Source: Phyllobacterium myrsinacearum
Lineage (GTDB): Bacteria > Pseudomonadota > Alphaproteobacteria > Rhizobiales > Rhizobiaceae
NCBI RefSeq assembly: GCF_014138285.1
Contig: NZ_JACGXN010000005.1
Location: 186,001-250,000 of the forward strand
Length of the DNA stretch: 64,000 nt
Direction: 5' to 3'
Part shown: piece by piece, positions 11,121 to 35,753 of the stretch
How positions within the stretch are numbered: position 1 is the first letter of the stretch
Layout of the letters: each line of letters starts with the position of its first letter
Position numbers and translations under genes: made by a program
Notes under the pieces: model-generated
What the model was told of the DNA's origin: nothing
The model's database searches: none
What the model saw: the letters and a program-made list of their open reading frames with translations, nothing else

Positions 11121-11141
11121 GCGGCTTGCGTGAACCTTGCA
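11121..11141 (-). promoter_or_regulatory. Flagellar promoter motif for the motA operon
   Basis: Read on the minus strand, GCAAGGTTCACGCAAGC occupies 11141 to 11125: two GCAAG half sites 11 bases apart. The motif is repeated before five other flagellar units. It ends 44 bases before the motA TTG, and TGATAG at 11118-11113 could be the -10. The role as FtcR/Rem site is inferred. Confidence 0.55.
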
Positions 11142-11181
11142 GGCACAGACAGGGTCATGACCGGGCGATAACGGGCGGACA

Positions 11182-11198
11182 GCTTCAGGCAAGCTTGA
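11182..11198 (+). promoter_or_regulatory. Flagellar promoter motif for the DUF1217-flgF-fliI unit
   Basis: CTTCAGGCAAGCTTGA matches the shared motif (TTC A/G C/G G C/T AAGC), with a weak upstream half (GACAG). It points in the plus direction, so the motA/flgF intergenic region carries one copy for each divergent unit. It ends about 40 bases before ATG 11240. Confidence 0.5.
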
Positions 11199-11239
11199 TT
11201 TGGCAAAGATAAGGGAAAGCTGTGGGAGTGCCGGTGCAA

Positions 11240-12019
11240 ATGATCAATACGATGACAAGCTACAAATTGATCTCTTCGGATCTGACGCGCTCTTTGACCC
11301 GCGTGGCCAAGGAACCTGCGGTTCAACGCGATACGGATTACTATCTGAAGAATATCGGCAACGTGAAAACCATCGACGATTTCATGAAAGATGATCGTCT
11401 CTATAAATATGCCATGAAAGCCATGGGCCTTGAGGACATGACCTTCGCCAAGGCTTTTATCCGCAAAGTGCTCACGGAAGGCACCGGCAAGGACAGCTTC
11501 GCCAGCAAGCTGACCGACAAGCGTTACCTTGAATTTGCGACAACGTTCGATTTTGCCAAGCTCGGCGACAAGGCGACCAGCGATCCGGCTGTGCTGAAGC
11601 CCGTGACCGACAAGTATGCGCGGCAAACACTGGAAAAAGAGGCCGGACAGGACAATGAAGGCGTACGGCTTGCGCTCTACTTCGCACGCAAGGCTCCGAC
11701 AATCACCAATGCCTATGAAATCCTTGGCGACAAGGCGCTGCTGAAGGTTTTCCAGACGACCTTCTCCATCCCGACACAGACATCCAACATGGATATCGAC
11801 CGTCAGGCCAAGATGGTCGAGGACAAGATTGACCTTGCGTCCCTGAAGGACCCTGCCAAGCTGGAAAAACTCATTACCCGCTTCACCGCCATGTACGAAA
11901 TGAACAATCCGTCGACGGCCTCCACCGCTCCTTCGCTGCTTATCGGGGGAAGTATGACCATTGGCATTTCACAAAGTATCCTGGCCACCTTGCAGTCGTT
12001 CAAGCTTGGGGGCCGCTGA
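11240..12019 (+). CDS. DUF1217 family flagellar-locus protein
   Basis: A 259-residue helical protein with no membrane segment, matching the DUF1217 family that is found before flgF in rhizobial flagellar clusters. Sequence features include repeated alpha-helical blocks with LxxF/Y spacing (DFMKDDRLYKYAMKAMGL, KRYLEFATTFDFAKLG, RQAKMVEDKIDLASLKDP). I chose ATG 11240 because its distance from the upstream promoter motif fits the other flagellar units; a GTG at 11222 in the same frame would add six residues. The stop overlaps the flgF start (TGATG), so the two are coupled. Function is unknown; location suggests export or rod assembly. Confidence 0.75.
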   Translation: MINTMTSYKLISSDLTRSLTRVAKEPAVQRDTDYYLKNIGNVKTIDDFMKDDRLYKYAMKAMGLEDMTFAKAFIRKVLTEGTGKDSFASKLTDKRYLEFATTFDFAKLGDKATSDPAVLKPVTDKYARQTLEKEAGQDNEGVRLALYFARKAPTITNAYEILGDKALLKVFQTTFSIPTQTSNMDIDRQAKMVEDKIDLASLKDPAKLEKLITRFTAMYEMNNPSTASTAPSLLIGGSMTIGISQSILATLQSFKLGGR

Positions 12020-12741
12020 TGGAAAATTCGATCTATGTCGGGTTGTCGTCGCAGATATCGCTGGAGCGCCGTCTGGATGCGCTCGCGCATAATGTAGCGA
12101 ACATGTCGACGCCGGGCTTTCGCGCCACGGGTATGAAATTTGAAACCATGGTGTCGAAGGCCGCGGAGGATTCCAGCTTCGTTTCCGCCGGACAGAGTTA
12201 CATCAAGACAGAGGCAGGCCCGATCACGCAGACCGGGAATCCCCTTGATATGGCCGCAAAGGGCGATGTGTGGTTTTCCATGCAGACACCGGCCGGACAG
12301 GTTTTCACCCGCGACGGGCGTATGCAGATGTCGACGACGGGCGAACTTCTTTCCATCAAGGGATATCCCATTCTTGATGCCGGCGGCCAGCCGCTGGTGA
12401 TCGATCCGAATGGCGGTCCGCCGGAGATTTCCGCGGACGGCGCGGTCTATCAGAACAAACGCCAGTTGGGTTCAATCGGGCTGTTCACGATCAACCCCAA
12501 TGCCAAGCTGACCTATTTCGACAATTCAGCCATCATTCCAAGTGTCGCGGCGCAGCCCGTTATCGATAACCCCCACGCTGGTGTCCTTCAGGGCGCGATC
12601 GAAGGCTCGAACGTCGATGCGATCGGTGAGATGACCCGGCTAATGAGTGTCACCCGGGCGTTTGAACGCGTGGATGCCTTGTTGCGCGGCAATGAAGGGA
12701 CATTTTCCGAAGCCATCAAGACGCTCGGATCAAAAACCTGA
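12019..12741 (+). CDS. flgF: Flagellar proximal rod protein FlgF
   Basis: FlgF is one of the proximal rod subunits exported through the type III apparatus. The 240-residue protein has the N-terminal rod/hook motif (YVGLSSQISLERRLDALAHN then VANMSTPGFRATGMKFE) and the C-terminal partner helix (GEMTRLMSVTRAFERVDALL). Its length is normal. It begins inside the stop codon of the DUF1217 gene and is followed 31 bases later by fliI. Confidence 0.93.
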   Translation: MENSIYVGLSSQISLERRLDALAHNVANMSTPGFRATGMKFETMVSKAAEDSSFVSAGQSYIKTEAGPITQTGNPLDMAAKGDVWFSMQTPAGQVFTRDGRMQMSTTGELLSIKGYPILDAGGQPLVIDPNGGPPEISADGAVYQNKRQLGSIGLFTINPNAKLTYFDNSAIIPSVAAQPVIDNPHAGVLQGAIEGSNVDAIGEMTRLMSVTRAFERVDALLRGNEGTFSEAIKTLGSKT

Positions 12742-12772
12742 TGCGCCATCTTTCTGACCTGGCCGGATAAGC

Positions 12773-14149
12773 ATGCAGGATCTGGAAGCAGCCCTGCCGT
12801 CAATGAGCAGCGGGACGGGAAGTCTCGAGGCGCTGGCGCGGCTTGTCTCGCAGGTCATGACAGCTCCAGCCCCTGTGGCCATCGGTGGTTATGTGACAGA
12901 AGTATCGCGCTCGGCAATCGGTGTGCGTGGTATTTCGGAGCGGGCTCAGCTTGGGGATATGGTGACCATCCGCAGTGATAATCAGTTACATCCCGCCGAA
13001 GTGGTGCGGATCGGGCAATCGCAGGTGCTGGTCAAGCCGTTTGATGACCGGATCATGCCCTCGCTCGGAACACCGGTTTTTCCCGAAGGACCGTTCCGCA
13101 TTGCACCCGCGCCCGATTGGAAGGGAAGGGTGATCAATGCCCTTGGCCTTCCGCTCGACGATAAGGGGTTGCTGACGGCTGGCAACGATCCAAAGCCAGT
13201 CGATTGTGCGGCACCGCTCGCAATGAACCGCAGCCGTGTCGAAACTGGTCTGCGCACGGGCGTGAACGTGGTCGATGTCTTCGCACCCATGTGCTTCGGC
13301 CAGCGCATGGGCGTTTTCGCCGGATCCGGTGTCGGCAAGTCCACACTGCTTGCGATGATGACCAAGGCAACGGATTTTGACACGGTTATTCTGGCCTTGA
13401 CGGGTGAACGCGGCCGCGAAGTGCGTGACATGCTGGAAGACACCATGGCTGGCAAGCTTGGCAAGACTGTTACCGTTGTATCGACGGGGGACGAAAGCCC
13501 GATGATGCGGCGGCTCGCGCCGAACACCGCGACAGCGATTGCCGAGTATTTCCGTGATCGCGGCGACAATGTTCTTCTCATCGTCGATTCCATCACACGC
13601 TTTGCCCATGCGGCGCGCGAAATCGCGATTGCCGCAGGCGAGCCGCCTGTGTCCAGAGGCTATCCGCCGAGTGTTTTCAGCCAGTTGCCGCGCCTGCTTG
13701 AACGGGCCGGGCCCGGATCGGGGAATGGCGGGACAATCACTGGCATCTATGCGGTTCTGGTTGATGGCGATGATCACAATGACCCGGTATCCGACGCAAT
13801 CCGCGGCACACTGGACGGACATATCGTGCTCGACCGCAGCATCGCCGCGCAAGGCCGTTTCCCAGCCATGGATATTCTCGGGTCTATTTCGCGACTGGCG
13901 CAGCACAACTGGTCGGCCGATCAGGCAAAACTCGTCACCAGCCTGCGCGGTCTGATTGCCCGTTTCGAAGAGACCCGCGATCTGCGGATGATCGGGGCCT
14001 ATCAGGCGGGGAGTGATCCCCTGCTCGACCAGGCCGTCCATCTGGTACCACGCATTTATGACGCTATGCAGCAAACACCGGCCACGCCGCTTTCAATGGA
14101 TCCCTATAGCGATCTTGCAGCGGCACTCCGGCCAAAGGAGGGGGCATGA
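12773..14149 (+). CDS. fliI: Flagellum-specific export ATPase FliI
   Basis: FliI is the hexameric ATPase, related to F1 beta, that energises loading of flagellar export substrates. At 458 residues it is full length. Walker A is GSGVGKST at 184-191; Walker B lies in NVLLIVDSITRFAHA; ALTGERGREVRDML and the C-terminal export domain (IGAYQAGSDPLLDQAV) follow. It overlaps the next gene by four bases (ATGA). A FliH-like partner is encoded further on at 23828. Confidence 0.97.
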   Translation: MQDLEAALPSMSSGTGSLEALARLVSQVMTAPAPVAIGGYVTEVSRSAIGVRGISERAQLGDMVTIRSDNQLHPAEVVRIGQSQVLVKPFDDRIMPSLGTPVFPEGPFRIAPAPDWKGRVINALGLPLDDKGLLTAGNDPKPVDCAAPLAMNRSRVETGLRTGVNVVDVFAPMCFGQRMGVFAGSGVGKSTLLAMMTKATDFDTVILALTGERGREVRDMLEDTMAGKLGKTVTVVSTGDESPMMRRLAPNTATAIAEYFRDRGDNVLLIVDSITRFAHAAREIAIAAGEPPVSRGYPPSVFSQLPRLLERAGPGSGNGGTITGIYAVLVDGDDHNDPVSDAIRGTLDGHIVLDRSIAAQGRFPAMDILGSISRLAQHNWSADQAKLVTSLRGLIARFEETRDLRMIGAYQAGSDPLLDQAVHLVPRIYDAMQQTPATPLSMDPYSDLAAALRPKEGA

Positions 14150-14718
14150 CAAAACAGAAATCTGCTGACGTACCGGCCGCAGGCGACGCGGCAACGGAAA
14201 CACCGCCACGCCAGCGCGACAAGCGTTTCGACGGCTATATCAAGGGCGCGGGCTTTTTCCTTGCCATCATCTGCGCCATCCTGCCCTTTGTCATGTATTA
14301 CGACATTCTGGAAGCACGGCCCAAACCGGAAATGGCGAGTAAAGCCGTTCGTGATCCGCTCGACCGGTCAAACCAGAAGGTTGTACGCAAGAACAATGGC
14401 AGCGAGACTCCCCAGTCAAAGACGAGGGATGGCGCGCTTGATCCGATGACGACGGCCACCACATCGGCTTTGACCGGCGACCGGCTTGCGGGGATCAATG
14501 CCGCCAGCAAACAGCCTTTCCCGGAGAAACCCGTTTTTCTTGTGCGCGAAGTGGTTGGTGGTCTGGTGATGATCGAAGACAACAGCGGCTACTGGTTCGT
14601 CGAAAAGGGATCACCTTTGCCCGATGGAAGCACCCTTGTAGCGATTGAACGCGGCACGTCGGCCGGGGCATGGCAGATCAAGACATCCGACGGGGAAGTG
14701 ATCAGCCGCACGAATTGA
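14146..14718 (+). CDS. Single-span membrane protein of the fliI unit, unknown function
   Basis: A 190-residue protein with a cytoplasmic N-terminus rich in charged residues, one membrane helix near residues 32-50 (GAGFFLAIICAILPFVMYY), a disordered periplasmic linker and a compact C-terminal domain (KPVFLVREVVGGLVMIEDNS...GYWFVEKGSPLPDGS) that ends in a short beta-rich segment. The C-terminal part has the feel of small type IV pilus or secretion pilotin-like beta domains, but I cannot assign a family. It is translationally coupled to fliI and conserved in position in rhizobial clusters as far as I recall. Confidence 0.6.
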   Translation: MTKQKSADVPAAGDAATETPPRQRDKRFDGYIKGAGFFLAIICAILPFVMYYDILEARPKPEMASKAVRDPLDRSNQKVVRKNNGSETPQSKTRDGALDPMTTATTSALTGDRLAGINAASKQPFPEKPVFLVREVVGGLVMIEDNSGYWFVEKGSPLPDGSTLVAIERGTSAGAWQIKTSDGEVISRTN

Positions 14719-14763
14719 GCAAATGACTCATCGCACGGTCAGAAGTTCCGAAACTGGCGGCGC

Positions 14764-14785
14764 CGCAAGTCTCACGCAAGATTGA
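14764..14785 (+). promoter_or_regulatory. Flagellar promoter motif for the flgB operon
   Basis: CGCAAGTCTCACGCAAGA at 14764-14781: two exact CGCAAG half sites 11 bases apart, the clearest direct repeat of the six copies. It is followed by CATAGA at 14789-14794 (possible -10), and the flgB ATG is 50 bases after the second half site. Confidence 0.55.
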
Positions 14786-14831
14786 CCGCATAGACTGGCA
14801 CCAGTTGATTGGTTGGGCGCGAGGCAGGTAC

Positions 14832-15212
14832 ATGCAGGGGATTCATCTATTCGAATTGGCATCACGTCAGGCCGAGTGGCTATCCGTCAGGCAGGCCGCG
14901 GTCTCCGGCAATGTCGCCAACGCCAATACGCCCGGCTTCAAAGCCCGGGACGTCGAGCCTTTCAAGGATGTGCTGGAGCAGACGCAGCTGACTATGGCCG
15001 CAACAAATCCGAAACATCTCGAAATCAATGCGTCCGGTATCGCTGCCACCGCTCTGCGCACGGATAAAGGGACCGAACAGAACCATTCGAAGAATACGGT
15101 CAGTCTCGAAGGCGAAATGGTCAAATCGGGCGAAATCAACCGGGAATTTGCCCTCAATACCAGCATTGTGAAAGCGTTTCACCGCATGATGCTGTCGGCA
15201 GTGAAGGGTTGA
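14832..15212 (+). CDS. flgB: Flagellar basal-body rod protein FlgB
   Basis: FlgB is a proximal rod subunit. From ATG 14832 ([20 protein letters not shown]) it is 126 residues, the usual size; earlier in-frame starts lack a ribosome-binding site and add atypical residues. The rod motif [18 protein letters not shown] is near residue 30 and the C-terminal helix includes [20 protein letters not shown]. First gene of a ten-gene operon that builds the rod and its rings. The stop overlaps TTG 15209, an unlikely flgC start. Confidence 0.95.
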
Positions 15213-15217
15213 ACCAG

Positions 15218-15637
15218 ATGTCCGATCCGCTACAGGCGGCACTCAAGGTTGCTGCATCAGGTCTCTCCGCCCAGTCGACACGCCTGCGTATCGTTTCCGA
15301 GAATCTGGCGAACGCGCAGTCGACGGGCAAGACGGCCGGCAGTGATCCGTTTCGCCGCAAGACCGTTTCCTTTGCCACCGAGCTTGATCGCAGCACCGGG
15401 GTAGAGACCGTGCGCATCGCCGAGGTTGGCCACGACGTCTCCGCTTTTATGGAAGAATACGATCCAAGCCATCCGGCGGCCGATGCCAAGGGCATGGTCA
15501 AATATCCCAACGTGAACATGGTCGTGGAAATGGCTGACATGCGCGAAGCCAACCGATCCTATGAAGCCAATCTCCAGGTGGTCAAGCAAGCCCGCGAGCT
15601 GATTGCCATGACCGTCGATCTCTTAAGGAACTCCTGA
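15218..15637 (+). CDS. flgC: Flagellar basal-body rod protein FlgC
   Basis: FlgC is a rod subunit next to FlgB. From ATG 15218 ([20 protein letters not shown]) it is 139 residues; GAAGGG lies nine bases upstream, which favours this start over TTG 15209. The rod motif [20 protein letters not shown] and the C-terminal signature [20 protein letters not shown] are intact. It overlaps fliE by one base. Confidence 0.95.
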
Positions 15638-15966
15638 TGATAGACCAGCTTCTCAGTGTTTCCACCCGCAACGCTCTTTCAAAGTTGTCGGAAACGGTAA
15701 ACCAGACCTCCCTGCCGGGCACATCTTCTCCTGCGGCTGCGGCTGGGCAGCCTTCCTTCGATAATATCCTGTCGCAATTGACGGGATCGGTCACCGGCAA
15801 ACTTGAAAATGCCGAAGCGGTTTCGCTCAAAAGCATGACAGGTGATGTACCGACGCGAGACGTGGTCAATGCCGTCATGGATGCGGAAAAATCGCTCCAG
15901 ACGGCCATCGCCATCCGCGACAAGATCGTCCAGGCCTATCTCGAAATCAGCCGTATGCCGATTTAA
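15637..15966 (+). CDS. fliE: Flagellar hook-basal body complex protein FliE
   Basis: FliE joins the MS ring to the rod. It is 109 residues, with the FliE C-terminal helix region ([34 protein letters not shown]) that defines the family. The start codon overlaps the flgC stop, and flgG begins ten bases after its stop. Confidence 0.93.
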
Positions 15967-15975
15967 GGAATCAGA

Positions 15976-16764
15976 ATGAAAGCGCTCACCATTGCTGCAA
16001 CCGGCATGAATGCCCAGCAGCTCAATCTGGAAGTGATTGCCAACAACATCGCCAATATCAACACGACCGGATTCAAGCGTGCCAAGGCTGAGTTCTCGGA
16101 CTTGCTGTATCAGACCGAACGCAGCGCCGGCGTGCCGAATATGGCGAACCAGAGCATCATTCCCGAAGGCGCCATGGTTGGGCTCGGTGTACAGACATCC
16201 GCCGTGCGTAACCTGCACATTCAGGGCGGTCTCAACCAGACCGGCAACCCGTTTGACGTGGCCCTGACCGGTCGTGGCTGGTTTCAGATTCAGAACACTG
16301 CCGGTGAAACGCTCTATACGCGCGCCGGTGCATTCAACACCAATGCGACCGGGCAACTGGTGACGCTGGATGGCAATCAGGTCGAGCCGAACATCGTGGT
16401 GCCGACCGATGCCATCGAGGTCAAAATCACCGAATCGGGACAGGTCTTCGCCAAGCTCTCCGACCAGACGCCCCTCGTCAATCTCGGTCAGCTGACCATT
16501 GCCAATTTTGCCAACGAGGCCGGTCTCGAGCCGCTCGGGGGCAATCTTTACAAGCAGACCGATGCATCGGGTGATCCTGTCGTCGGCGTGCCGGGCGATC
16601 CGGGCTTCGCTACTTTGAAACAGGCTTATCTGGAAAATTCGAACGTCGATCCGGTCAAGGAAATCACGGATCTGATCACGGCCCAGCGTGCCTACGAGAT
16701 GAACTCGAAAGTTATTCAAGCCGCTGACGAAATGGCATCTGTCGTATCGAAGAACCTGCGCTGA
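15976..16764 (+). CDS. flgG: Flagellar distal rod protein FlgG
   Basis: FlgG forms the distal rod, the drive shaft passing through the L and P rings. The 262-residue length is exact for the family. N-terminal [20 protein letters not shown] and [20 protein letters not shown], and C-terminal [20 protein letters not shown] followed by [11 protein letters not shown], are textbook FlgG. Confidence 0.97.
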
Positions 16765-16772
16765 GGACAATC

Positions 16773-17255
16773 ATGACGGCGGCAAAGATCATCTGGAACT
16801 GGACCATCCGCGTGCTGGCACTTGGCTTGTGCGCGCTGGTCTTTTCCGTTGCCGCCCGCGCCGAACGGATCGCCTTTCTGGTGCCCTCGCAGATCATCTA
16901 TCCCGGCCAGACCATCGGCAATGCAGGCCTGACGGAAAAGTACTTTACCATCCGGGCGAGCGCGGCTGCCCAGTATGTGCTGTCTCCCGACCAGCTCGTC
17001 GGCAAGGTATCGCGCCGGACATTGCTGCCGGGACAACCCATCCTGCTCACGGCCGTCAACGAGCCTGACATGGTCCAGCGCGGCGTCCCTGCCGTACTGA
17101 TCTTTGATACAGGTTCGCTGGTTATCACCGCGCGCGGTACACCGCTTGAAGCAGGGCGCGTCGGCGATTTCATCAAGGTTCGCAATCTCGACAGCGGCAT
17201 CACCGTGTCAGGTACCATTCTTGCCGATGGCCGCATTCAGGTGGGCATGCAATGA
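16773..17255 (+). CDS. flgA: Flagellar P-ring assembly chaperone FlgA
   Basis: FlgA is a periplasmic chaperone for FlgI polymerisation. The 160-residue protein starts with a Sec signal (hydrophobic core VLALGLCALVFSVAARA, cleavage expected after ARA). The SAF domain follows (YPGQTIGNAGLTEKYF; GKVSRRTLLPGQPIL) with the C-terminal FlgA domain (GTPLEAGRVGDFIKVRNLDS, GTILADGRIQV). It is somewhat short but complete. It overlaps flgI by four bases. Confidence 0.93.
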   Translation: MTAAKIIWNWTIRVLALGLCALVFSVAARAERIAFLVPSQIIYPGQTIGNAGLTEKYFTIRASAAAQYVLSPDQLVGKVSRRTLLPGQPILLTAVNEPDMVQRGVPAVLIFDTGSLVITARGTPLEAGRVGDFIKVRNLDSGITVSGTILADGRIQVGMQ

Positions 17256-18472
17256 TGCGGCGTTTCGCAATAGTCTTGCTTGCCCTGCTTGCCACGTCCG
17301 CGGTGCATGCGGGCGAATCCGCTCCCAATGAGAAGGGTTACAAGACCCCCGGTCAGGCGCAGGCCGCCTGGCAGAAGGAAGTTGACGACGGACGCTGGGG
17401 TGGCCCGGCATCCCCGCTTGGTCAGGGCGGTGCTCTTGCCCGGCTCAAGGATATAGCCACCATTCAGGGCGTGCGTGAAAACCAGCTTGTCGGTTATGGC
17501 CTCGTCATCGGCTTGAACGGTACGGGCGACAGCTTGCGCAATGCCCCTTTCACCGAACAGTCCATGCGCGCCATGCTTGACAATCTCGGTATCAGCCCAC
17601 CCGCTGGTACGTCGCGTGCCAAGAACATTGCAGCGGTCATTGTCACCGCCAATCTGCCGCCCTTTGCCGGGCGCGGATCACGGATCGATGTGACGGTTTC
17701 CTCGCTTGGCGACGCAACCTCGCTTTCAGGCGGCACACTTGTGATGACCCCCTTGGCCGGTGCGGATGGGCAGGTCTATGCGGCGGCGCAGGGTAATATG
17801 ATTGTTTCCGGCTTCACCGCGTCGGGTGAAGCAGCAACGGTGACGCAGGGCGTACCCACCAGCGGGCGTATTCCCAACGGCGCGCTGGTCGAAAAGGAAG
17901 TCGCAGGCAATTTTGGTCAGGAAGGTGAACTCGTTGTCGAGTTGCGTCAGCCGGATTTCACGACCGTTGTGCGCATTACCGATACCATCAACGCTTTTGC
18001 CAAGCGCCGCTACAATCAGCCCGTGGCGAAAGAACGTGACGCGAAATCGATCCGCCTGCGCAAACCGAAGAACATGACGGCAGCGCGTTTTCTCGCCGAA
18101 ATCGAAGGTCTTCCGGTGCCGACGGACGAGGTAGCGCGCGTGGTCGTCGACGAGCGCACCGGTACCGTCGTCATTGGCGAGAAAGTGCGGATATCGCGCG
18201 TTGCCATCAGCCATGGCAGCCTGTCTGTCCGGGTCACCGAGACACCAACGGTTGTCCAGCCGGAACCCTTCAGCGACGGCGTGACGGCGGTCGAACCCAA
18301 TACCGATATCCAGGTACAGCAGACGTCGAAGATCGGCATGCTGGGCGGGACGGATCTCGAAAGCCTCGTCAAGGGTCTCAACCAGATCGGTGTGAAACCC
18401 CAGGGCATCATCGCCATCCTCCAGGGCATCAAGACTGCGGGCGCATTGCACGCAGAGTTGGTGGTCCAATGA
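17252..18472 (+). CDS. flgI: Flagellar P-ring protein FlgI
   Basis: FlgI forms the P ring in the peptidoglycan layer. The 406 residues include a signal peptide (MMRRFAIVLLALLATSAVHA). There is a longer than usual spacer before the conserved start RLKDIATIQGVRENQLVGYG, then LNGTGDSL and the C-terminal ILQGIKTAGALHAELVVQ. The spacer (about residues 21-67) is rich in Gly, Pro and Gln and is longer than in enterobacterial FlgI. Four-base overlaps on both sides tie it to flgA and motE. Confidence 0.96.
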   Translation: MMRRFAIVLLALLATSAVHAGESAPNEKGYKTPGQAQAAWQKEVDDGRWGGPASPLGQGGALARLKDIATIQGVRENQLVGYGLVIGLNGTGDSLRNAPFTEQSMRAMLDNLGISPPAGTSRAKNIAAVIVTANLPPFAGRGSRIDVTVSSLGDATSLSGGTLVMTPLAGADGQVYAAAQGNMIVSGFTASGEAATVTQGVPTSGRIPNGALVEKEVAGNFGQEGELVVELRQPDFTTVVRITDTINAFAKRRYNQPVAKERDAKSIRLRKPKNMTAARFLAEIEGLPVPTDEVARVVVDERTGTVVIGEKVRISRVAISHGSLSVRVTETPTVVQPEPFSDGVTAVEPNTDIQVQQTSKIGMLGGTDLESLVKGLNQIGVKPQGIIAILQGIKTAGALHAELVVQ

Positions 18473-18993
18473 GAACAGGGATGACGATACGTCAAAGGTT
18501 CGCTGCAGCTCTGGTCTGCGCACTGGCTATATCCGCGGTGCCCTCCTTCGGCTGGGCGCAGGATGTTGCGCCCAAGGATGAGACCGGGCAGGAAATTGAT
18601 CGCTATTGCACCAATATCACCGACAAGGCCGCTGATGCGCGCTACGCCATGCAGACCCGTGAACTGGAGCAGTTGCGGGTGGACATTGACAGCCGCATTC
18701 AGGAGCTGGAAGCCAAGCGCAAGGAATATGAGGTCTGGTTGAAACGTCGCGATGAGTTCATCGACAAGGCGGAAGACTCCCTGGTCGGCATCATCTCCAA
18801 GATGCGTCCGGACGCTGCGGCGGCACAAATGGCGCTGATGGGCGATGAACCAGCCGCAGCGCTCCTGCTAAAGCTCAATCCCCGTATCTCAAGCGTTATC
18901 CTGAATGAAATGCCGGCGGAAAAATCCTCCCGGCTCGCCCGTGTGATCGTTGGATCGCGTGTGGTCACCACGAAAGAAAGAACCGCGCAATGA
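18469..18993 (+). CDS. motE: MotE, periplasmic chaperone of MotC
   Basis: MotE is the rhizobial periplasmic protein that protects and folds MotC. The 174 residues contain a signal peptide ending near WAQD, a coiled-coil stretch (QTRELEQLRVDIDSRIQELE, AKRKEYEVWLKRRDEF), and the MgtE-N-like helical region typical of MotE (ISKMRPDAAAAQMALMGDEP, AALLLKLNPRISSVILNEMP). Only this rhizobial family pairs the signal peptide with such a tail. Overlaps flgI and flgH by four bases each. Confidence 0.88.
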   Translation: MRTGMTIRQRFAAALVCALAISAVPSFGWAQDVAPKDETGQEIDRYCTNITDKAADARYAMQTRELEQLRVDIDSRIQELEAKRKEYEVWLKRRDEFIDKAEDSLVGIISKMRPDAAAAQMALMGDEPAAALLLKLNPRISSVILNEMPAEKSSRLARVIVGSRVVTTKERTAQ

Positions 18994-22120: not shown

Positions 22121-22141
22121 GCGAACTTCGCGCAAGCTTCG
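22121..22141 (+). promoter_or_regulatory. Flagellar promoter motif for the fliF operon
   Basis: GCGAACTTCGCGCAAGC (22121-22137) continuing TTCG matches the shared motif. TTCGCGCAAGCTTCG followed by TCTCTATG is nearly identical to the copy before flhA. CTATGG at 22146-22151 may be the -10. The motif ends 38 bases before the fliF ATG. A further CGCAAGC lies at 22160-22166. In Brucella, FtcR is known to act at the fliF promoter. Confidence 0.6.
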
Positions 22142-22179
22142 ATCTCTATGGTGACACGACGCAAGCGTGGTGGGCATTA

Positions 22180-23826: not shown

Positions 23827-23827
23827 T

Positions 23828-28138: not shown

Positions 28139-28661
28139 CAGTCCGTTCATTGCACAAGCTGTTCGCGCGGATAATCTCTGTGAGCGCGAGATGCACCGGG
28201 CGTCGAGCAAATACGACATTCCGATCGGCATCCTCTATGCCGTCGGATTGACCGAAACGGGGCATAAGGAATCTTTGCAACCCTACGCCATGAACATCGA
28301 AGGCAAGGCGGTCTTCATGCCGTCAGCCGCGGCGGCTGTGGTGAAGTTCAACGAGGCGCATGAACAGGGTGCCAAGCTGATTGACCTCGGTTGCATGCAG
28401 ATCAATCACTATTTTCATGCAAGTGCATTCCCGTCCGTGAGTGCCATGCTGGACCCTGCAACCAACGTGGATTATGCGGCGCGTTTTCTCAAACAGCTCC
28501 GGGCGCGCGAAGGCAACTGGACCATGGCGGTTGCGCGCTATCACGCGGGTCCCAACAATGACCCGGCGCAGAAGCAGTATGTTTGCCGGGTAATAGAAAA
28601 TATGGTGGCTTCCGGCTTTGGAAACTGGACGCAGAAGGCGCGAATGTTCTGTGATAAGTGA
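28071..28661 (+). CDS. Flagellar-locus lytic transglycosylase (SLT domain)
   Basis: The 196-residue product has a signal peptide (IAILLAAWLCSSPFIAQAVR) and a lysozyme-like SLT domain that cleaves peptidoglycan glycan strands. Catalytic Glu is in GILYAVGLTETGHKESLQPY; GCMQINHYFH and MAVARYHAGPNND are further family motifs. ATG 28071 lies inside fliK, with GGAG 11 bases upstream, giving a 68-base overlap. FlgJ in this cluster lacks a muramidase domain, so this enzyme probably opens the wall for the rod, like SltF in Rhodobacter. Last gene of the fliF operon. Confidence 0.85.
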   Translation: MSVTTGLPEPFRIAILLAAWLCSSPFIAQAVRADNLCEREMHRASSKYDIPIGILYAVGLTETGHKESLQPYAMNIEGKAVFMPSAAAAVVKFNEAHEQGAKLIDLGCMQINHYFHASAFPSVSAMLDPATNVDYAARFLKQLRAREGNWTMAVARYHAGPNNDPAQKQYVCRVIENMVASGFGNWTQKARMFCDK

Positions 28662-28799
28662 CCGTGTTAATCTTCGGTAATAAAACGTGAATTTGTTCGC
28701 TTGGTCATCTTTGGTTAAGATGTGCCGTATAAACATTTGAGCATGCGAGTCGTCTCTCGCTCCGTCTCTGTTTCCCCACGAAGATCCCCATTTCAGACT

Positions 28800-28848
28800 C
28801 CCAATAAATTGCGGTCAATTTGTTGGGGATTGTCGGCGAGTCACCGAC
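28800..28848 (+). promoter_or_regulatory. ftcR leader with 28-base palindrome and second hairpin
   Basis: CCCAATAAATTG (28800-28811), CGGT, CAATTTGTTGGG (28816-28827): 12-bp arms with one mismatch, 72 bases before the GTG. A second stem GTCGG-CGAGTCA-CCGAC follows at 28832-28848, the same stem sequence and loop length as in the flagellin leader. It may be an operator or an mRNA structure controlling ftcR. Confidence 0.45.
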
Positions 28849-28899
28849 CCCGCTACGTGTGTGTTGTGTGGGGTTTTTACTGATTCGGAAGGTGGGGTC

Positions 28900-29577
28900 G
28901 TGATTGTAGTCGTCGACGAAAGAAGTCTGGTGACGAGTGGGTATTCGGCGTGGTTCGCCCGTGAGGGCATTACAACAACAGGGTTCGCTCCCGACGATTT
29001 CGGAGACTGGGTTTCTACCGTCCAGCAGAGCGATATTATGGCGGTGGAAGCGTTTCTCATAGGGGAATGTGCCAACCGCAGCCAGTTTCCCCACAAGATT
29101 CGTGAACGCTGCTCGGCACCGGTCATCGCGGTCAATGAAACGCAATCGCTTGAACACACGCTTGAACTGTTCCAGGCGGGCGTTGACGATGTGGTCCGCA
29201 AGCCGATGCACGTCCGCGAAATTCTGGCGCGGATCAATGCGATCCGCCGCCGCTACGGCAACGGCAGTGGCGATACCGGCACGCAGGTTGGTCCGATCCG
29301 TGTCTTCTCCGATGGCCGCGATCCGCAGGTCAATGGCGCCGAGTTCTCGCTGCCGCGCCGCGAGCGCCGTATTCTGGAATACCTGATCGCCAACCGTGGG
29401 CGCCGCTTGAACAAGGCGCAGATCTTCAGCGCGATCTACGGCATTTTCGACAGCGAAGTCGAGGAAAGTGTTGTCGAGAGTCACATCAGCAAACTTCGCA
29501 AGAAGCTGCGGGAACAGCTCGGTCATGATCCGATCGATTCCAAGCGTTTCCTTGGCTACTGCATCAATCTCGATTGA
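28900..29577 (+). CDS. ftcR: Orphan OmpR-type flagellar regulator FtcR/Rem
   Basis: FtcR (Brucella) and Rem (Sinorhizobium) are orphan two-component-type activators of flagellar genes. This 225-residue protein has an N-terminal receiver-like domain and a C-terminal winged helix ([40 protein letters not shown]). The conserved receiver Lys is K101 (DDVVRKPMH), but the end of beta-3 reads AVEAFLIGE, with no obvious phospho-acceptor Asp, suggesting activity without phosphorylation. GTG 28900 is chosen because Brucella FtcR begins MIVVVDE and GGAAGGTGGGG lies just upstream. It is a separate unit between fliK and flgE. I infer that it binds the repeated motif found before six flagellar units. Confidence 0.93.
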
Positions 29578-29641
29578 TCACCTCCTGCTGTTCCGCTGGC
29601 GGCGGGGCAGCCAGAACAAAGATATCTCAAGGCATTCAGGG

Positions 29642-29663
29642 CGTCAGGTTCACGCAAGCATCG
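29642..29663 (+). promoter_or_regulatory. Flagellar promoter motif for the flgE operon
   Basis: CGTCAGGTTCACGCAAGC at 29642-29659: half sites 11 bases apart, same spacing and core (GGTTCACGCAAGC) as the motA copy. TTACGA at 29669-29674 may be the -10. The motif lies 44 bases before the flgE ATG. Confidence 0.55.
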
Positions 29664-29707
29664 CAGGGTTACGATCCTGAACGGAATCATGGCGCAAGGA
29701 GACGGAA

Positions 29708-30994
29708 ATGAGCCTTTATGGAATGATGCGGACGGGTGTATCGGGCATGAATGCCCAGGCCAACCGCCTATCGACCGTGTCGGACAATATCGCGAATTCC
29801 AGCACCACCGGCTACAAGCGTGCCAGCACGCAGTTTTCCTCGCTGGTTCTGCCAAGCTCCGGTGGCGCCTATAATTCCGGCGGTGTGGAAACAGTTGTCC
29901 GCCATCACATTTCCGATGATGGCTCGCTCCGCTTCACTACGTCATCGACTGATCTTGCGCTCAAGGGCAATGGTTTTTTCGTGGTCAATGACAGCAGCGG
30001 CACACCATACCTGACACGCGCCGGTTCCTTCGTCCCGGATGCGCAGGGCAATCTGGTTAATGCGGCCGGCTATTACCTCATGGGCAATCCGATTGTGAAT
30101 GGCCAGACCAATTCGGTCATCAATGGCTATCAGGGACTTGAGAAGATCAACGTCAAGCAGAATGACCTTGTCGCTGATCCGAGCCGCAAGGGCACGTTCA
30201 CGGCCAACCTGCCAGCCGGCTCAGCCGTTATTGACGCCGCTGACCTGCCATCCAATGCGGCTGCCAATACGGCCGGAACGGCAAAATACACCGCCAAGAC
30301 ATCGCTGCAGAGCTTTGACAATCTCGGCAACCTGGTGGTCCTCGATGTTTACTTCACCAAGACGGGTGAAGATCCGGTCACCAAGAATGCCACGTGGGAA
30401 GCGACGGTTTACAACAAGGCTGACGCTGCAGCCAGCGGGGGCTTCCCCTATTCAAAAGCCGCTATGAAAACGGAAAGCTTCACCTTTGATGGCGTCACCG
30501 GCAAGATGACGTCTGGAGACAAGTCCCTCTCGGTGCAGATTCCCAATGGCCAGATGCTCGAGATCGACATGTCCGCCACCAAACAGCTGGCAGGCGACTA
30601 CACGCCGATCGAGGCGAAGATTGACGGCAGCACGCCGAGCCCGATCGAGAATGTCGACATCGCTGCCGATGGTACTGTTGTTGCGCGCTACAAGAATGGC
30701 GCCCAGCGCGCGATCTACCAGATTGCGCTGGCTGATGTTCCCAGTCCCGATAATCTTCTTGTTCTGTCGGGCAACGTCTATGCGACCAGCGCCGAATCCG
30801 GTGATGTCCAGTTTGGCACACCCGGCAAGGGCAGCTTCGGAACCCTGACTTCAGGGGCTCTGGAAGAATCGAACGCGGACATCGCACAAGAACTGACTGA
30901 GATGATTGAAGCGCAGAGAAGCTACACGGCCAATTCCAAGGTCTTCCAGACCGGTGCGGATTTGATGGACGTGCTGGTCAATCTGAAGAGGTAG
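29708..30994 (+). CDS. flgE: Flagellar hook protein FlgE
   Basis: FlgE builds the hook. The 428 residues have the N-terminal rod/hook motif (MSLYGMMRTGVSGMNAQANR, NIANSSTTGYKRASTQFSSL), the D1/D2 hook domain in the middle (SLQSFDNLGNLVVLDVYFTK), and the C-terminal signature EESNADIAQELTEMIEAQRS followed by YTANSKVFQTG. ATG 29708 has AGGAGA eight bases upstream. It opens the hook and filament-junction operon. Confidence 0.96.
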   Translation: MSLYGMMRTGVSGMNAQANRLSTVSDNIANSSTTGYKRASTQFSSLVLPSSGGAYNSGGVETVVRHHISDDGSLRFTTSSTDLALKGNGFFVVNDSSGTPYLTRAGSFVPDAQGNLVNAAGYYLMGNPIVNGQTNSVINGYQGLEKINVKQNDLVADPSRKGTFTANLPAGSAVIDAADLPSNAAANTAGTAKYTAKTSLQSFDNLGNLVVLDVYFTKTGEDPVTKNATWEATVYNKADAAASGGFPYSKAAMKTESFTFDGVTGKMTSGDKSLSVQIPNGQMLEIDMSATKQLAGDYTPIEAKIDGSTPSPIENVDIAADGTVVARYKNGAQRAIYQIALADVPSPDNLLVLSGNVYATSAESGDVQFGTPGKGSFGTLTSGALEESNADIAQELTEMIEAQRSYTANSKVFQTGADLMDVLVNLKR

Positions 30995-31022
30995 CATCCC
31001 AAATGTTGATTGGACCTAAGGC

Positions 31023-32495
31023 ATGTCATTAAGCTCGGCACTCCTTACCGCTCAGAGTGCTCTGACGACGACGTCGAAACAGACAGCGTTGGTATCCCGC
31101 AATATTGCGGGTGCCAACGATCCCAATTTCACGCGTCGTATTGGTTCAGTCGTTAGTGGTCCCAACGGATCGACCTATCTGTCAGTCAGCCGTTCAGCCG
31201 ACGACGCGCTTCTTTCGAAATACATCGAGACGAACAGCCAGCTCGGTGCGTCCGATACCATGAAAAGCGGTCTTGACCGGCTTTCGGGCATTTACTCCGC
31301 CAACAATGCGTCGGGTTCGCCAAGTGCTCTGCTGGGCGACCTGCGCGACTCGCTGCAGCAATACGCATCGCAGCCGGGCAATAACTCTGTCGGCGAAGCG
31401 GCGGTTTCCAAGGCCATCAACCTTGCCAATGCCCTGAACAAGGGTACGAACGATGTTCAGAAACTGCGGCAGGATGCCGACAGCGACATCAATGACTCCG
31501 TCAAGAACATCAATGCGCTGCTGGCAAAGTTTGAAACCGTCAACAACCGTGTGATCAACGGAACGCGGTCCGGTGCTGACGTGTCGGATTTCCTTGACCA
31601 GCGCGATGGTCTTTTGAAGGAGATCTCCGGCGAGATCGGCATCACGACAATGGTGCGCGGCGACAATGATCTGGTGATTTTCGCCGAGTCCGGCGTGACC
31701 TTGTTTGAAGGATCGCCTCGTACGGTCAGCTTCACGCCGACAGCTGCCTTCGCGGCGGGTACATCAGGCAATCAGGTCTATGTCGATGGTGTGCCGCTGT
31801 CGCATGATACATTTCAGCAGCCTTACGGTAGCGGTCGCCTGAGCGGACTGATGCAGCTGCGCGATCAGACCGCACCTGCATACCAGAAGCAGCTTGATGA
31901 AGTCGCGCGCAGTCTTGTCGGCATGTTTGCTGAAAAAGACCAGAAAACGCCGTCTACTCTGCCAGATATTCCAGGGCTCTTCACCTATTCCGGGGCACCG
32001 GCCATGCCCGCGGACGCCACGATCTCGCCCGGTATAGCCGGAACGATCAAGGTTTCCTCGGCCTATATTCTGTCGGAAGGTGGCAGCCCGACGCTGTTGC
32101 GCGATGGCGGCACCAATCCGGCCAACCCGGACTATGTTCAGAATACCGGGGCATCGGCCGGTTATTCTGCCCGTTTGCAGGGATTGATCGGTGCCATCAA
32201 CGCCCCGCGCAGCTACGATGCGGATGCCGGCATCAGCGGGCAACTGAGCCTTGTGGATTATTCCGCCGCCTCGATCAGCTCACTCGAAACCAAGCGCAAG
32301 TCTGTGACTGAAACCAACACCTATAACGGTGTACTGGCCTCGCGGGCGGAGGATGCAATTTCCAATGCATCCGGTGTGAATATCGATGTCGAGATGCAAT
32401 CGATGCTCGAGCTTGAACATTCCTATCAGGCGTCGGCCCGGATTCTGTCCGCGGTGGACGCCATGCTGAACGAACTCTTGAACGCGGTGAAATAG
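31023..32495 (+). CDS. flgK: Flagellar hook-associated protein 1, FlgK
   Basis: FlgK is the first hook-filament junction protein. The 490-residue protein has N-terminal SALLTAQSALTTTSKQTALV and NIAGANDPNFTRRIG, a helical region around residue 150 (VNNRVINGTRSGADVSDFLD, QRDGLLKEISGEIGI) and C-terminal VDYSAASISSLETKRKSVTE and MLELEHSYQASARILSAVDA. It follows flgE by 28 bases and precedes flgL by two. Confidence 0.95.
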   Translation: MSLSSALLTAQSALTTTSKQTALVSRNIAGANDPNFTRRIGSVVSGPNGSTYLSVSRSADDALLSKYIETNSQLGASDTMKSGLDRLSGIYSANNASGSPSALLGDLRDSLQQYASQPGNNSVGEAAVSKAINLANALNKGTNDVQKLRQDADSDINDSVKNINALLAKFETVNNRVINGTRSGADVSDFLDQRDGLLKEISGEIGITTMVRGDNDLVIFAESGVTLFEGSPRTVSFTPTAAFAAGTSGNQVYVDGVPLSHDTFQQPYGSGRLSGLMQLRDQTAPAYQKQLDEVARSLVGMFAEKDQKTPSTLPDIPGLFTYSGAPAMPADATISPGIAGTIKVSSAYILSEGGSPTLLRDGGTNPANPDYVQNTGASAGYSARLQGLIGAINAPRSYDADAGISGQLSLVDYSAASISSLETKRKSVTETNTYNGVLASRAEDAISNASGVNIDVEMQSMLELEHSYQASARILSAVDAMLNELLNAVK

Positions 32496-32497
32496 CG

Positions 32498-33547
32498 ATG
32501 AAAACCCAGTCCATTTCATCCTACATGCTGGCCAATTCGACCCGGAATATTCTGGCGAAGGCACAGGCGGATCTTATCAAGGCGAAGGAAGAGGCTACGA
32601 CCGGCTTTATTTCCGATACCGGCCTCGCGCTCGGCAGCCGCACCGGCCAGTCAATTTCCCTGCGCAAGGAATATGATCGATTGACGGTTCTGACCGAGAC
32701 GAACAATTTCATTGGCCAGCGTATGACGACTTCGCAAAATGCCCTCGGCAATCTCGTCAAGGGTGCAACCGATTTTCTTGGCACCGTCACTGCCCTGCGC
32801 GGCTCGACCGACGGTCATTCCGTTGCCGCAGACAAGGCCAAGAGCGGGTTGCAGACCACAACAGGTCTGGCCAACACAAACTACAATGGCGAGTATGTAT
32901 TTGCCGGCGTGAACACCGATGTTCAGCCGATGGATGATTACTATGCGGATGGCAACCCGGCGCGCGCCGCGATCCAGAACGCCTTCCAGACTCAGTTCGG
33001 TTTTCCCATGACCGATCCGCAGGTGAAGAACATCACCGCGGACCAGATGAAGACCTTTCTCGATACGACCATGACAGCGCAGTTCAGCGCGGGTTCCTGG
33101 TCGACCAACTGGTCATCAGCTTCCGATACCCTGGTCAAAAGCCGCATCGCGCCGAGTGAACTGGCTGAAACCTCGGTCAGTGCCAACAATGCCGGATTCC
33201 GACAGCTGGCCATGAGCTACACCATGGTGGCCGAGCTTTCGAATATCGGTTTGAACCAGGGCGCCTTCGATGCCGTCATGGACAAGGCAATCTCAACGAC
33301 GACCCAGAGCATTTCGTCGCTCACGGGCGCACAGTCCTTCCTTGGCGACGCACAGGCTCGAACCAAGGATGCGACAGACCGCCTGACTGTTCAGATCAAG
33401 GTTCTCAACAGTTCGGTCCTCGATATGGAAGCCGTTGATCCTTACGAGGCCGCCAACCGGGTGACTGCACTGACCACACAGATCGAGGCTTCCTATGCCC
33501 TGACCGTCAAGCTGCAGAGCCTGAGCCTGCTCAATTACCTGAAATAA
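32498..33547 (+). CDS. flgL: Flagellar hook-associated protein 3, FlgL
   Basis: FlgL joins FlgK to flagellin. The 349 residues show a flagellin-like N-terminus (MKTQSISSYMLANSTRNILA, LIKAKEEATTGF) and a C-terminal helix (EAVDPYEAANRVTALTTQIE, ASYALTVKLQSLSLLNYL). No fliD cap gene is in the window, as is usual for rhizobia. Confidence 0.94.
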   Translation: MKTQSISSYMLANSTRNILAKAQADLIKAKEEATTGFISDTGLALGSRTGQSISLRKEYDRLTVLTETNNFIGQRMTTSQNALGNLVKGATDFLGTVTALRGSTDGHSVAADKAKSGLQTTTGLANTNYNGEYVFAGVNTDVQPMDDYYADGNPARAAIQNAFQTQFGFPMTDPQVKNITADQMKTFLDTTMTAQFSAGSWSTNWSSASDTLVKSRIAPSELAETSVSANNAGFRQLAMSYTMVAELSNIGLNQGAFDAVMDKAISTTTQSISSLTGAQSFLGDAQARTKDATDRLTVQIKVLNSSVLDMEAVDPYEAANRVTALTTQIEASYALTVKLQSLSLLNYLK

Positions 33548-33598
33548 TCGCAACGGCTGCGGTTCCCGCGCCCGCTCATGCCGATACCGGAAAGACAT

Positions 33599-33943
33599 AT
33601 GTACCAGGCCCGATACAACGACATCATGGACGACGGCGCGGCGAGCGCCAAGGAACGTGAACGCTCATTGTTCGACCAGTCGATCATGATGCTGGAGGAC
33701 GCGCGCGACGAAGGAGACTATTCCTTCAAAGGCATAGAGGCGATGCAGTTTACATCCCGGCTGTGGGTGATTGTGATCGAAGACCTCGGCAGTCCGGAGA
33801 ACGGCCTGCCGCCGCAATTGCGCGCTTCGCTGATTTCGATAGGCATTTATATCCTCAAGGAGCTTGAAGAGATCCGCCAGGGCAGATCATCCGATTATGA
33901 CGGCATTATCGAGATCACCAGAACCATTCGTGACGGGATCTGA
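33599..33943 (+). CDS. flaF: Flagellin biosynthesis regulator FlaF
   Basis: FlaF works with FlbT to balance flagellin synthesis and secretion in alphaproteobacteria. From ATG 33599 ([20 protein letters not shown]) it is 114 residues, with GGAAAG before the start. Family residues include the helical block LLDQS-like [20 protein letters not shown] and ALISIG-like [20 protein letters not shown]. It is six bases upstream of flbT, the usual pair. Confidence 0.93.
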
Positions 33944-33948
33944 ACATC

Positions 33949-34389
33949 ATGAAAATTACATTGCGTGCCGGTGAAAAGGTCTACATCAACGGCGCTATTC
34001 TGAGTGCGGACCGCAAGGTTTCCCTTGAACTCCTGAACGATGTGACCTTTCTGCTCGAGAGCCACGTCCTGCAGGCGAATGAAACGACAACCCCGCTGCG
34101 CCAGCTCTATTATGCGGCGCAGATCATGCTGATCAATCCGCTCATCAGGCATGAAGCAAACATCGCCTTCAAGCGCATGCTGGGCAACCTGCTGGCAACA
34201 TTTGAAAACCAGCAGATGCTCAAGGAGCTGAAGCTGATCGACGAAATCGTCTGCAACGACCGGGTGTTCGAGGCGCTCAAAGCCATACGCGTACTCTATC
34301 CGCTGGAAGCCCAGATCCTGTCCGGCGATGCGGACTCCAATCATCCCCCCCATTCGGACCAGCCAAACAGGCCGGAGGCAATCGCATGA
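33949..34389 (+). CDS. flbT: Flagellin translation repressor FlbT
   Basis: FlbT represses flagellin synthesis post-transcriptionally by acting on the mRNA leader (shown in Caulobacter; Brucella FlbT has a more positive role). The 146-residue protein has the family pattern: [20 protein letters not shown], then [20 protein letters not shown] and [15 protein letters not shown]. The flagellin leader hairpins at 21006-21061 are possible targets. It overlaps flgD by four bases. Confidence 0.94.
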
Positions 34390-34784
34390 CAACCACTCCT
34401 CTCGTCGGATCGTCAACCGGCAACACATCGGACTCGCCCAAGGCGAACGGTCCCAGTGTCGACTATCAGTCCTTTCTGAAGCTGCTTGTCGCGCAGATGA
34501 AGAACCAGGATCCGACACAACCGATGGACGGCACCGCCTATGTGGCACAGCTCGCCCAGTTCTCGAATGTCGAGCAATCGACGCTGATGAATCAGAAACT
34601 GGATCAGATCCTGGCCAGTGCTTCGCTGTCGCAGGCAGATGGTATCATCGGCCGGACTGTTACAAGCGCTGATGGCAAGATCACCGGTGTGGTGGAATCG
34701 GTCAAGATCTACAGCGATGGCATGATTGCCAAGCTGAAGGGTGGAGCCGAGTTGCCAATCACCGCCGGCATCGTCATCAGTTGA
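34386..34784 (+). CDS. flgD: Flagellar hook-capping protein FlgD (short form)
   Basis: FlgD caps the growing hook. At 132 residues this is the short form typical of Rhizobiales: the conserved N-terminal part is present ([40 protein letters not shown]), followed by a short beta domain ([20 protein letters not shown]), whereas the enterobacterial protein is about 100 residues longer. Confidence 0.93.
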
Positions 34785-34800
34785 TCGCCAGCAGCCAATC

Positions 34801-35067
34801 ATGAATGAGGCCGATGCGCTCGACATCATCAACCAGGCTATCTGGACGGTGATTGTCGCTTCCGGTCCGGCGGTGGGCGCGGCCATGCTTGCCGGCGTCA
34901 TCATCGCGCTGTTTCAGGCCTTGACGCAAATCCAGGAAGTGACGCTGACCTTCGTGCCGAAGATCATCGTCATTCTGGCCGTACTGGCGTTGACGGCTCC
35001 CTTTGTCGGTTCGCAGATCAATACGCTGACTCTGCTCACCTATTCGCGGATCGAAAAGGGCTTCTGA
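34801..35067 (+). CDS. fliQ: Flagellar export gate protein FliQ
   Basis: FliQ is a small two-helix pore component of the export gate. From ATG 34801 (MNEADALDIINQAIWTVIVA) it is 88 residues, exact for the family; membrane helices include GAAMLAGVIIALFQALTQIQ and IVILAVLALTAPFVGS. An upstream in-frame ATG at 34741 lies inside flgD and is unlikely. After it the operon is interrupted by a palindromic repeat before flhA. Confidence 0.95.
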   Translation: MNEADALDIINQAIWTVIVASGPAVGAAMLAGVIIALFQALTQIQEVTLTFVPKIIVILAVLALTAPFVGSQINTLTLLTYSRIEKGF

Positions 35068-35115
35068 GCATCGAGGGTGAACCACGCACGCTTGTTGTGC
35101 AAGAACGAGATGTTC

Positions 35116-35277
35116 TCACCCCCCTCTGCCCTGTCGGGCATCTCCCCCACAAGGGGGGAGATCACATTGACATCAAAGATTTCGCGCTATTTTCAACATT
35201 GCAAATTGCCAGAAATATTAATGAAGGCTGATCTCCCCCCTTGCGGGGGAGATACCCGACAGGGCAGAGGGGGGTGA
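35116..35277. repeat. Large nested inverted-repeat element between fliQ and flhA
   Basis: Two 49-base arms, 35116-35164 and 35229-35277, are inverted copies differing at only two positions, separated by 64 AT-richer bases. Each arm contains its own hairpin, ATCTCCCCC then GCAAG or ACAAG then GGGGAGAT. The arms begin TCACCCCCCTCTGCCCTGTC. I recognise the type (CCCCCTCTGNCCTG...ATCTCCCC) as a widespread intergenic palindrome of Rhizobiales. The terminal inverted repeats and short AT-rich core suggest a MITE-like origin. As RNA it would form a very strong cruciform, likely to stop or attenuate transcription from fliQ into flhA. Confidence 0.8.
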
Positions 35278-35704
35278 ATTGGTCATCAGATTTGCCCTTC
35301 GTAAGAAAAACACACCAACTTATCCAACACTTCTCATCCTCGCGTATTCTCATCGTGTCCTTTCCGGCGGGAATGCTTCCGGAAACTTTCGAAAGTCGGG
35401 AAAGGATCGGCGCTTCGGCCTCGTGGGGAGAAAACCCATGGGACGGGGAGGTTTCGCTGAAGCTGTTCTCTTCATCTGGCGCAGCAGCCGGATGACAAGG
35501 CAGAACAGGCGGAAACGTAAAATCGTCGGGGCGGGTGGTCCTTGGATCGCAAGCATAGCATACAGAATACCCAAGACCCGCGTTCAAAGGACCGCCCGTC
35601 ATTCTCTTCTTTCAATGGCCAGACGCAAAGGTGGGCGTGGCAACGGCGAAATGCGGATTTCGCTCTGTCCAATGATGGAAAATGCCCATCGCGGCCGCTT
35701 TGGC
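35278..35704. other. Non-coding filler with a second inverted repeat
   Basis: About 430 bases with no convincing gene between the nested palindrome and the flhA promoter. Open frames exist on both strands (for example 35279-35713 plus, 35162-35602 minus) but composition is not protein-like and they share no known domain. A second inverted pair, GGGTGGTCCTT (35533-35543) and AAGGACCGCCC (35587-35597), flanks a 43-base stretch. I think the whole interval is eroded repeat DNA inserted within a once-continuous fliQ-flhA operon. Confidence 0.45.
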
Positions 35705-35719
35705 TTCGCGTAAGCTTCG
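35705..35719 (+). promoter_or_regulatory. Flagellar promoter motif for the flhA operon
   Basis: TTCGCGTAAGCTTCG, then CTCCCTATG, matches the fliF copy at 20 of 23 positions including the CTATG that may be the -10 (35724-35728). The upstream half site is weak. The motif ends 34 bases before the GTG of flhA, so flhA has its own promoter despite its operon-like position. Confidence 0.6.
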
Positions 35720-35753
35720 CTCCCTATGCTCGTGCGGATCATAGGAGAATGCC

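Follow-up and report, generated by a model that had tools for sequence, protein, structure and literature searches.

The systems closest to the element described here are those of the OmpR-type flagellar master regulators FtcR of Brucella, Rem of Sinorhizobium and Agrobacterium, LafR of Bradyrhizobium and ActR of Azorhizobium, which share one class of targets. Two further systems resemble it in layout: PhoB of Escherichia coli binds the Pho box, tandem 11-bp half-sites that replace the -35 element before a sigma-70 -10, and CtrA, also an OmpR-type flagellar master, binds half-sites 11 bp apart near -35, with the site TTAA-N7-TTAA. Here we describe a 22-bp tandem repeat, hereafter the box, that precedes six flagellar transcription units of Phyllobacterium myrsinacearum and is, in our assessment, highly likely to be the FtcR-read operator and core promoter of the class II flagellar operons. 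The analysed stretch, hereafter the window, comprises 64,000 nt (NCBI RefSeq assembly GCF_014138285.1, contig NZ_JACGXN010000005.1, positions 186,001 to 250,000 of the forward strand) of a 5.97-Mb genome in 40 contigs.

Rem activates class II genes (PMC9812332, PMC8429497), and Leonard et al. are cited as having shown binding of FtcR upstream of fliF (PMC9456535). Unlike the box, the sole FtcR motif given in print in the accessible parts of these sources is TGTGGGCA, found in 118 of 363 sites in Brucella by chromatin immunoprecipitation sequencing; the gel shifts reported there are on the leaders of ftcR and betI, which leaves room for other FtcR targets (PMC9456535). The portions of the literature covered (including PMC9456535, PMC8639532, PMC10469942, PMC9812332, PMC8429497, PMC7003649, PMC8513845, PMC9731437 and PMC3616915, the last with a single passing mention of motility) contain no operator of the present sequence, an earlier description being possible in Rotter 2006 or Leonard 2007.

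A tandem 11-bp repeat before six flagellar transcription units

A first-pass annotation of the window had proposed that one element precedes six flagellar units, and all six copies were found in place. Flagellar genes were named through family models and homology, with some names (motB to motE) being our assumption. On the minus strand, the box at 11119..11140, with the -10 TAGTGC at 11109-11114, lies before motA, with fliM, fliG and flhB running on the same strand. The plus-strand copies lie before DUF1217/flgF/fliI (11178..11199, a weak copy with a displaced -10), flgB (14765..14786; TAGACT at 14791-14796), fliF (22121..22142; TATGGT at 22147-22152), flgE (29643..29664; TACGAT at 29670-29675, shifted one base downstream) and flhA (35699..35720; TATGCT at 35725-35730). 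An unseeded motif search of the six 110-nt leaders recovered the element in all of them (W = 17), with a score of 142.6 compared to a mean of 103.5 (standard deviation 4.2, maximum 119.8) for 300 control sets drawn from the window; the end of the element falls 35-47 nt upstream of the assumed start codons, and its shared presence in the six leaders is confirmed as real. As the annotation had also stated, the box is absent from the flagellin leaders of the window and from that of ftcR (28861..29577, plus strand).

The core originally proposed, TTCRSGYAAGC, is exact in the motA, DUF1217, fliF, flgE and flhA copies, but flgB has CTCACGCAAGA. The repetition of GCAAG 11 bases apart is exact, as had been noted, in motA and flgB; a third exact GCAAG-N6-GCAAG in the window lies at an unrelated minus-strand place near 54205. 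The bare core fails as a motif in its own right: with 44 matches in the genome versus 29 for the reversed pattern it is near background, and it was rejected as a genome-wide predictor.

The unit proper is a 22-bp tandem 11-mer with the consensus GCCAGCTTCGC-GCAAGCTTCGC, the halves of which differ at one base. Its anatomy was derived from 181 of 257 sites after removal of near-duplicates, chosen by a 14-base core only, with the -10 not used. Compared with itself, the matrix scored 3.05 at offset 11 and no higher than 0.34 at any other offset between 5 and 15, bearing out the suspected direct repeat, and across seven window copies (the six above and the flgJ copy described below) the two halves match at 4 to 8 of 11 positions. 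TA stands at a single fixed offset after the box in 155 of the 181 sites, 120 of which have TAnnnT, to be compared with the -10 consensus TATAAT; nothing resembling TTGACA is found ahead of the box in the 181-site consensus. The TATG/ATAG-like stretch that had been placed 6-9 bases after the core does correspond to a TA-containing -10, but the distance needs restating: the hexamer starts 4 nt past the 22-bp box in motA, flgB, fliF, flhA and flgJ, 5 nt past it in flgE and ~10 nt past it in DUF1217. With TAnnnT taken as the -10, the box would span about -38 to -17, overlapping the -35 region and extending into the spacer. The element has both the 11-bp-period direct repeat of an OmpR/PhoB-type operator and, relative to a predicted transcription start, the -35 placement at a fixed distance from the -10.

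Specificity of the box in the window and the genome

Three models were used. R1, a sequence-only model, retains 36 of 60 sites from other genomes (same genus included), picked by eye for a recognisable -10, with 24 dropped. The relatives' matrix comprises 38 sites from outside the genus, picked with a matrix of the six window copies and so not fully independent; the own-family matrix comprises 32 own-family sites and was applied with a threshold of 12 bits. Scanning the Phyllobacterium genome with R1 (150 of 1665 first-look candidates scored) returned eight matches at E up to 10, with modest E-values of 0.003 to 1, and six of the eight are the six copies, ranked 1-5 and 7, an outcome favourable to the genome-wide specificity expected of the element. 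The other two, C4:87564 and C8:6582, were rejected as promoters, being inside unrelated open reading frames (ORFs) that we take, from their translations, to be a metallo-beta-lactamase-fold protein and rpoD, respectively. On the window alone, with filters off, the six copies occupy ranks 1-6.

The relatives' matrix likewise places the six copies first in the window, at 16.0-24.8 bits, with the next site at 12.3; DUF1217 reaches 16.8 and flgE 16.0 bits, and in ten window-length Markov sequences the maxima ranged from 4.6 to 16.1, with one of the ten reaching 16.1. By the own-family matrix, fliF scores 23.7, motA 20.2, flgB 19.9, flhA 19.1 and flgE 13.9 bits, and two non-promoter sites (13.7 and 12.1) exceed DUF1217 at a sub-threshold 11.3. 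DUF1217 and flgE are weak copies, supported by their position and their conservation in relatives.

Several box-like sites were considered and set aside. The 13.7-bit site at 60260 falls within ORFs distant from flagellar genes and is taken as background. The site at 6290-6311 (minus strand) was rejected as a box since it lies within flhB, in codons for the conserved C-terminal part. A site of at least 12 bits does occur upstream of the homologous post-flhB gene in 14 of 21 relatives, but at a different place, and most of these share one sequence; by our reading, they too are probably flhB C-terminal codons, and a site at 10354 of locus L084 is taken to be of the same kind.

Among 20 of the off-cluster sites listed in relatives, nine head fliF, motA, flgB or DUF1217 units (L340, L341, L343, L347, L351-L355). 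The other 11 (L339, L342, L344-L346, L348-L350, L356-L358) do not head any of these units and include dnaK-like and ctrA-like genes; some of them may be chance. Two of these, L346 and L349, have a box-like site ahead of proteins that look alike (210 and 229 aa) and match no Pfam family. With 25.2 bits, L350 198-240 (genome G014) ranks second in strength among the R1 matches of 41 genomes and has no clear flagellar gene downstream.

Flagellar operons headed by the box in relatives

Leaders were surveyed in 20 own-family genomes (two stretches each) and in 80 named loci, the best 80 of 564, counting sites of at least 12 bits; matches starting after residue 30, most of those with <40% coverage, cross-hits and genes with <200 nt upstream were dropped, and motA, DUF1217 and flgB lay outside the matrix training set. 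In the own family, the box was present in the leaders of motA (17/17), fliF (11/11), flhA (17/17) and flgE (19/20), and rarely in those of fla (1/27), flgF (1/18) and flgG (1/19). The named loci gave the same picture for fliF (52/56), flgE (64/70) and flhA (40/46), with low counts for fla (8/54) and flaF (2/72); flgF (2/2), flgG (1/2), motA (0/2) and flgB (0/2) are represented by two leaders each. No box was found in any of the 100 ftcR leaders (20 own-family, 80 named loci) or before the remaining genes tested in either set, other internal genes of the own family among them, and the reversed-matrix control gave 0 throughout. The box thus stands where promoters of an FtcR/Rem/LafR regulon would be expected, ahead of class II flagellar operons rather than inside them.

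A seventh, weaker box probably precedes flgJ (39012..39033, plus strand; -10 TAAGGT at 39038-39043; ATG at 39076), scoring 12.1 bits with the relatives' matrix, 10.9 with the own-family matrix and 4.0 with R1. In Phyllobacterium, a like site with TA at -10 is found at the same place in all 10 usable loci (12 tried; L065 and L170 are from one genome), with scores of 5.0-19.4 bits. Few relatives outside the genus have it (2/14 own-family leaders and 3/31 named loci).

The published motif does not account for the flagellar leaders considered here, where its frequency is at background. TGTGGGCA occurs in a single leader out of 288 for the six genes (cross-hits unfiltered; background 0.0023 per 260 bp) and in none of the 100 ftcR leaders, is present within one mismatch in the window in the fliF leader only, and is not contained in the box.

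Co-occurrence of the box and FtcR

FtcR of the window matches Trans_reg_C with 55.3 bits and Response_reg with 25.5 bits, below the Pfam cut-off of 30.2; the sub-cut-off receiver domain is in keeping with the description of Rem as lacking the aspartate in the part of that source available (PMC9812332). Among solved structures, those nearest to it in sequence are OmpR/PhoB-type response regulators, the nearest named records are from Phyllobacterium (best identity 98%), and identity together with the descriptions in the accessible parts of the papers identifies it as the predicted orthologue of FtcR/Rem/LafR/ActR.

In the own family, FtcR (E up to 1e-60) is present in 102 of 121 genomes, 100 of which also carry FlhA of this type, the two others being G028 and G036. 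In the order sample, FtcR (E below 1e-45) was found in 47 of 199 genomes, 42 of them with FlhA at least 59% identical, and no FtcR-less genome among the 199 has such an FlhA. In the class sample (n = 190, at least three of which are this genome or its order), FtcR was found only in this genome.

The box follows the same distribution. With the own-family matrix, 16 of 20 20-kb flhA regions from FtcR-type clusters of other families contain a site (36 sites; 0 with the reversed matrix), versus 0 of 20 regions of the other flagellar type (reversed 1); 13 of the latter come from FtcR-less genomes (G034, of the own family, among them), six from genomes with both types, and one from G234, with FtcR on another contig. 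Within the six dual-system genomes, the FtcR-type cluster has 2-3 sites in every case and the other cluster has none. Outside the own family, a site is present around ftcR in 11 of the 19 regions (reversed 1). When R1 was run on 41 family genomes, each of the 31 carrying both FtcR and FlhA returned 3-12 matches, and the eight FtcR-less genomes have 1, 0, 2, 2, 1, 0, 0 and 0, so that none reaches three (31/31 vs 0/8, P = 1.6e-8, ignoring kinship). The box accordingly co-occurs with FtcR and is absent where FtcR is missing, with exceptions among the FtcR carriers.

FtcR in genomes without a flagellum

Four genomes (G028, G036, G137 and G191) carry FtcR with no FlgG or FliP match, and G284 carries it with a single FliP-like match at 35% and none for FlgG. 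In G028 (L084 8985-10173) and G036 (L360 9603-11154), both also without FlhA, ftcR adjoins flaF with a box between them (15.8 and 15.6 bits by matrix, respectively), and in G036 flbT comes next; this arrangement was not seen in G137, G191 or G284. That two genomes lacking FlhA, FlgG and FliP keep ftcR, box and flaF may point to roles of FtcR, FlaF and FlbT outside flagella. It is conceivable, and we put it forward tentatively, that the box is the order-wide FtcR/Rem/LafR operator, that TGTGGGCA does not describe the flagellar targets, and that an FtcR-box module outlives the flagellum.

A predicted mechanism and its alternatives

We propose that the element serves the early (class II) flagellar operons both as operator and as core promoter. 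A pair of FtcR subunits would bind head to tail on the two 11-bp half-sites (GCMAGCTTCGC twice), from about -38 to -17, take the place of the absent -35 and recruit housekeeping RNA polymerase to the TAnnnT -10 that lies four bases downstream. Production of FtcR would turn on the predicted motA, DUF1217, flgB, fliF, flgE and flhA units together, and in this genus flgJ too; flagellin would not be a direct target, and ftcR itself would be controlled by other inputs. The assignment of FtcR as the reader, already suggested by the first-pass annotation, gains support from the 11-bp repeat and from the tracking of FtcR across genomes and within the six dual-system genomes.

Several observations weigh against this proposal. 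The box precedes DUF1217 in only 7 of 11 and flgB in 6 of 18 own-family relatives; four of the 20 FtcR-type flhA regions (peaks of 7.7-11.1 bits) and 8 of the 19 ftcR regions, all from other families, stay below the 12-bit threshold; R1 has no match in G028 and G036; and several named distant relatives (Methylocapsa, Lichenibacterium) score low. Co-occurrence alone cannot name the reader because FtcR and this flagellar type travel together, and a different FtcR motif, TGTGGGCA, has been published with gel shifts, as far as the accessible part of that report goes (PMC9456535).

The 11-bp repeat would fit the entire OmpR/PhoB class, of which FtcR is not the sole protein in the genome (22 matches in G000). 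Another member of the class, such as CtrA or one encoded outside the cluster, is nevertheless an unlikely reader: TTAA-N7-TTAA is absent from the 181-site consensus, and the box tracks the FtcR-type cluster, with no site in the other cluster where a genome holds two. PhoB-dependent promoters differ in half-site sequence, and here the gap between the second 11-mer and the -10 is just 4 nt. That a LuxR-type master reads the box while FtcR acts elsewhere is more improbable still. LuxR proteins usually bind an inverted repeat, unlike the head-to-tail 11-bp repeat found here, and VisR-like sequence (E below 1e-18; the query was a 90-aa piece taken for VisR by its motif) was detected in five genomes of the 199 in the order sample, each a member of the own family, whereas the box occurs in other families too. 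A candidate is at hand in the window, where ORF 4786-5610 (plus strand), beside the flagellar cluster, encodes a LuxR-type helix-turn-helix with 43% identity over 56 aa to the VisR-like piece. In the portions available, the literature ranks VisNR above Rem, in Sinorhizobium as in Agrobacterium (PMC9812332, PMC8429497), but Bradyrhizobium diazoefficiens and Azorhizobium have rem homologues and no visNR (PMC8429497). We give equally little credence to a two-part promoter of an alternative sigma factor acting without an activator: the fixed spacing to a -10-like hexamer would suit it, but the strongest block, GCAAG, stops only 10 bp short of the -10, nearer than a -35 would lie, and the element repeats an 11-bp unit in tandem. 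Finally, although the bare core is near background and motif-like DNA does arise within genes such as flhB, chance or composition is refuted for the leader set, and practically negligible overall, by the unseeded search, the genome rank, the leader survey and the comparison of 20-kb regions, with reversed controls at 0 for leaders and at most 1 per group of regions; it may still apply to the DUF1217 copy taken alone.

Neighbouring features of the window

By analogy, the LuxR-type ORF at 4786-5610 is a possible upstream regulator of ftcR; VjbR is a comparable upstream regulator in Brucella. Next to it, 5619-6056 (minus strand) encodes a 145-aa protein after flhB that has no Pfam match and is kept beside flhB in relatives. 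The product of 8791-9405 (minus strand) matches the NCBIfam BAB2_0123 family type IV secretion effector model (175.8 bits, cut-off 100) and sits between fliM and fliG, in the expected place of fliN. A palindromic repeat of ~160 bp at 35116-35277, 83% identical to its own reverse complement and with copies in several relatives, lies within the 687-nt fliQ-flhA gap, with the flhA box downstream; the gap in other Phyllobacterium measures 71 to 705 nt.

Implications

Rem, FtcR and LafR are known flagellar masters of rhizobia and related bacteria, and the operator in print is otherwise, in the accessible parts of the sources, only an 8-mer, which does not hold here. With its fixed promoter geometry, a 22-bp box would make the direct targets of FtcR/Rem/LafR predictable across the order and renders the published FtcR motif directly testable. 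The box separates the basal body, hook, motor and export operons from box-less flagellin and ftcR. If the FtcR-box module does outlive the flagellum, FtcR, FlaF and FlbT may be employed beyond flagella.

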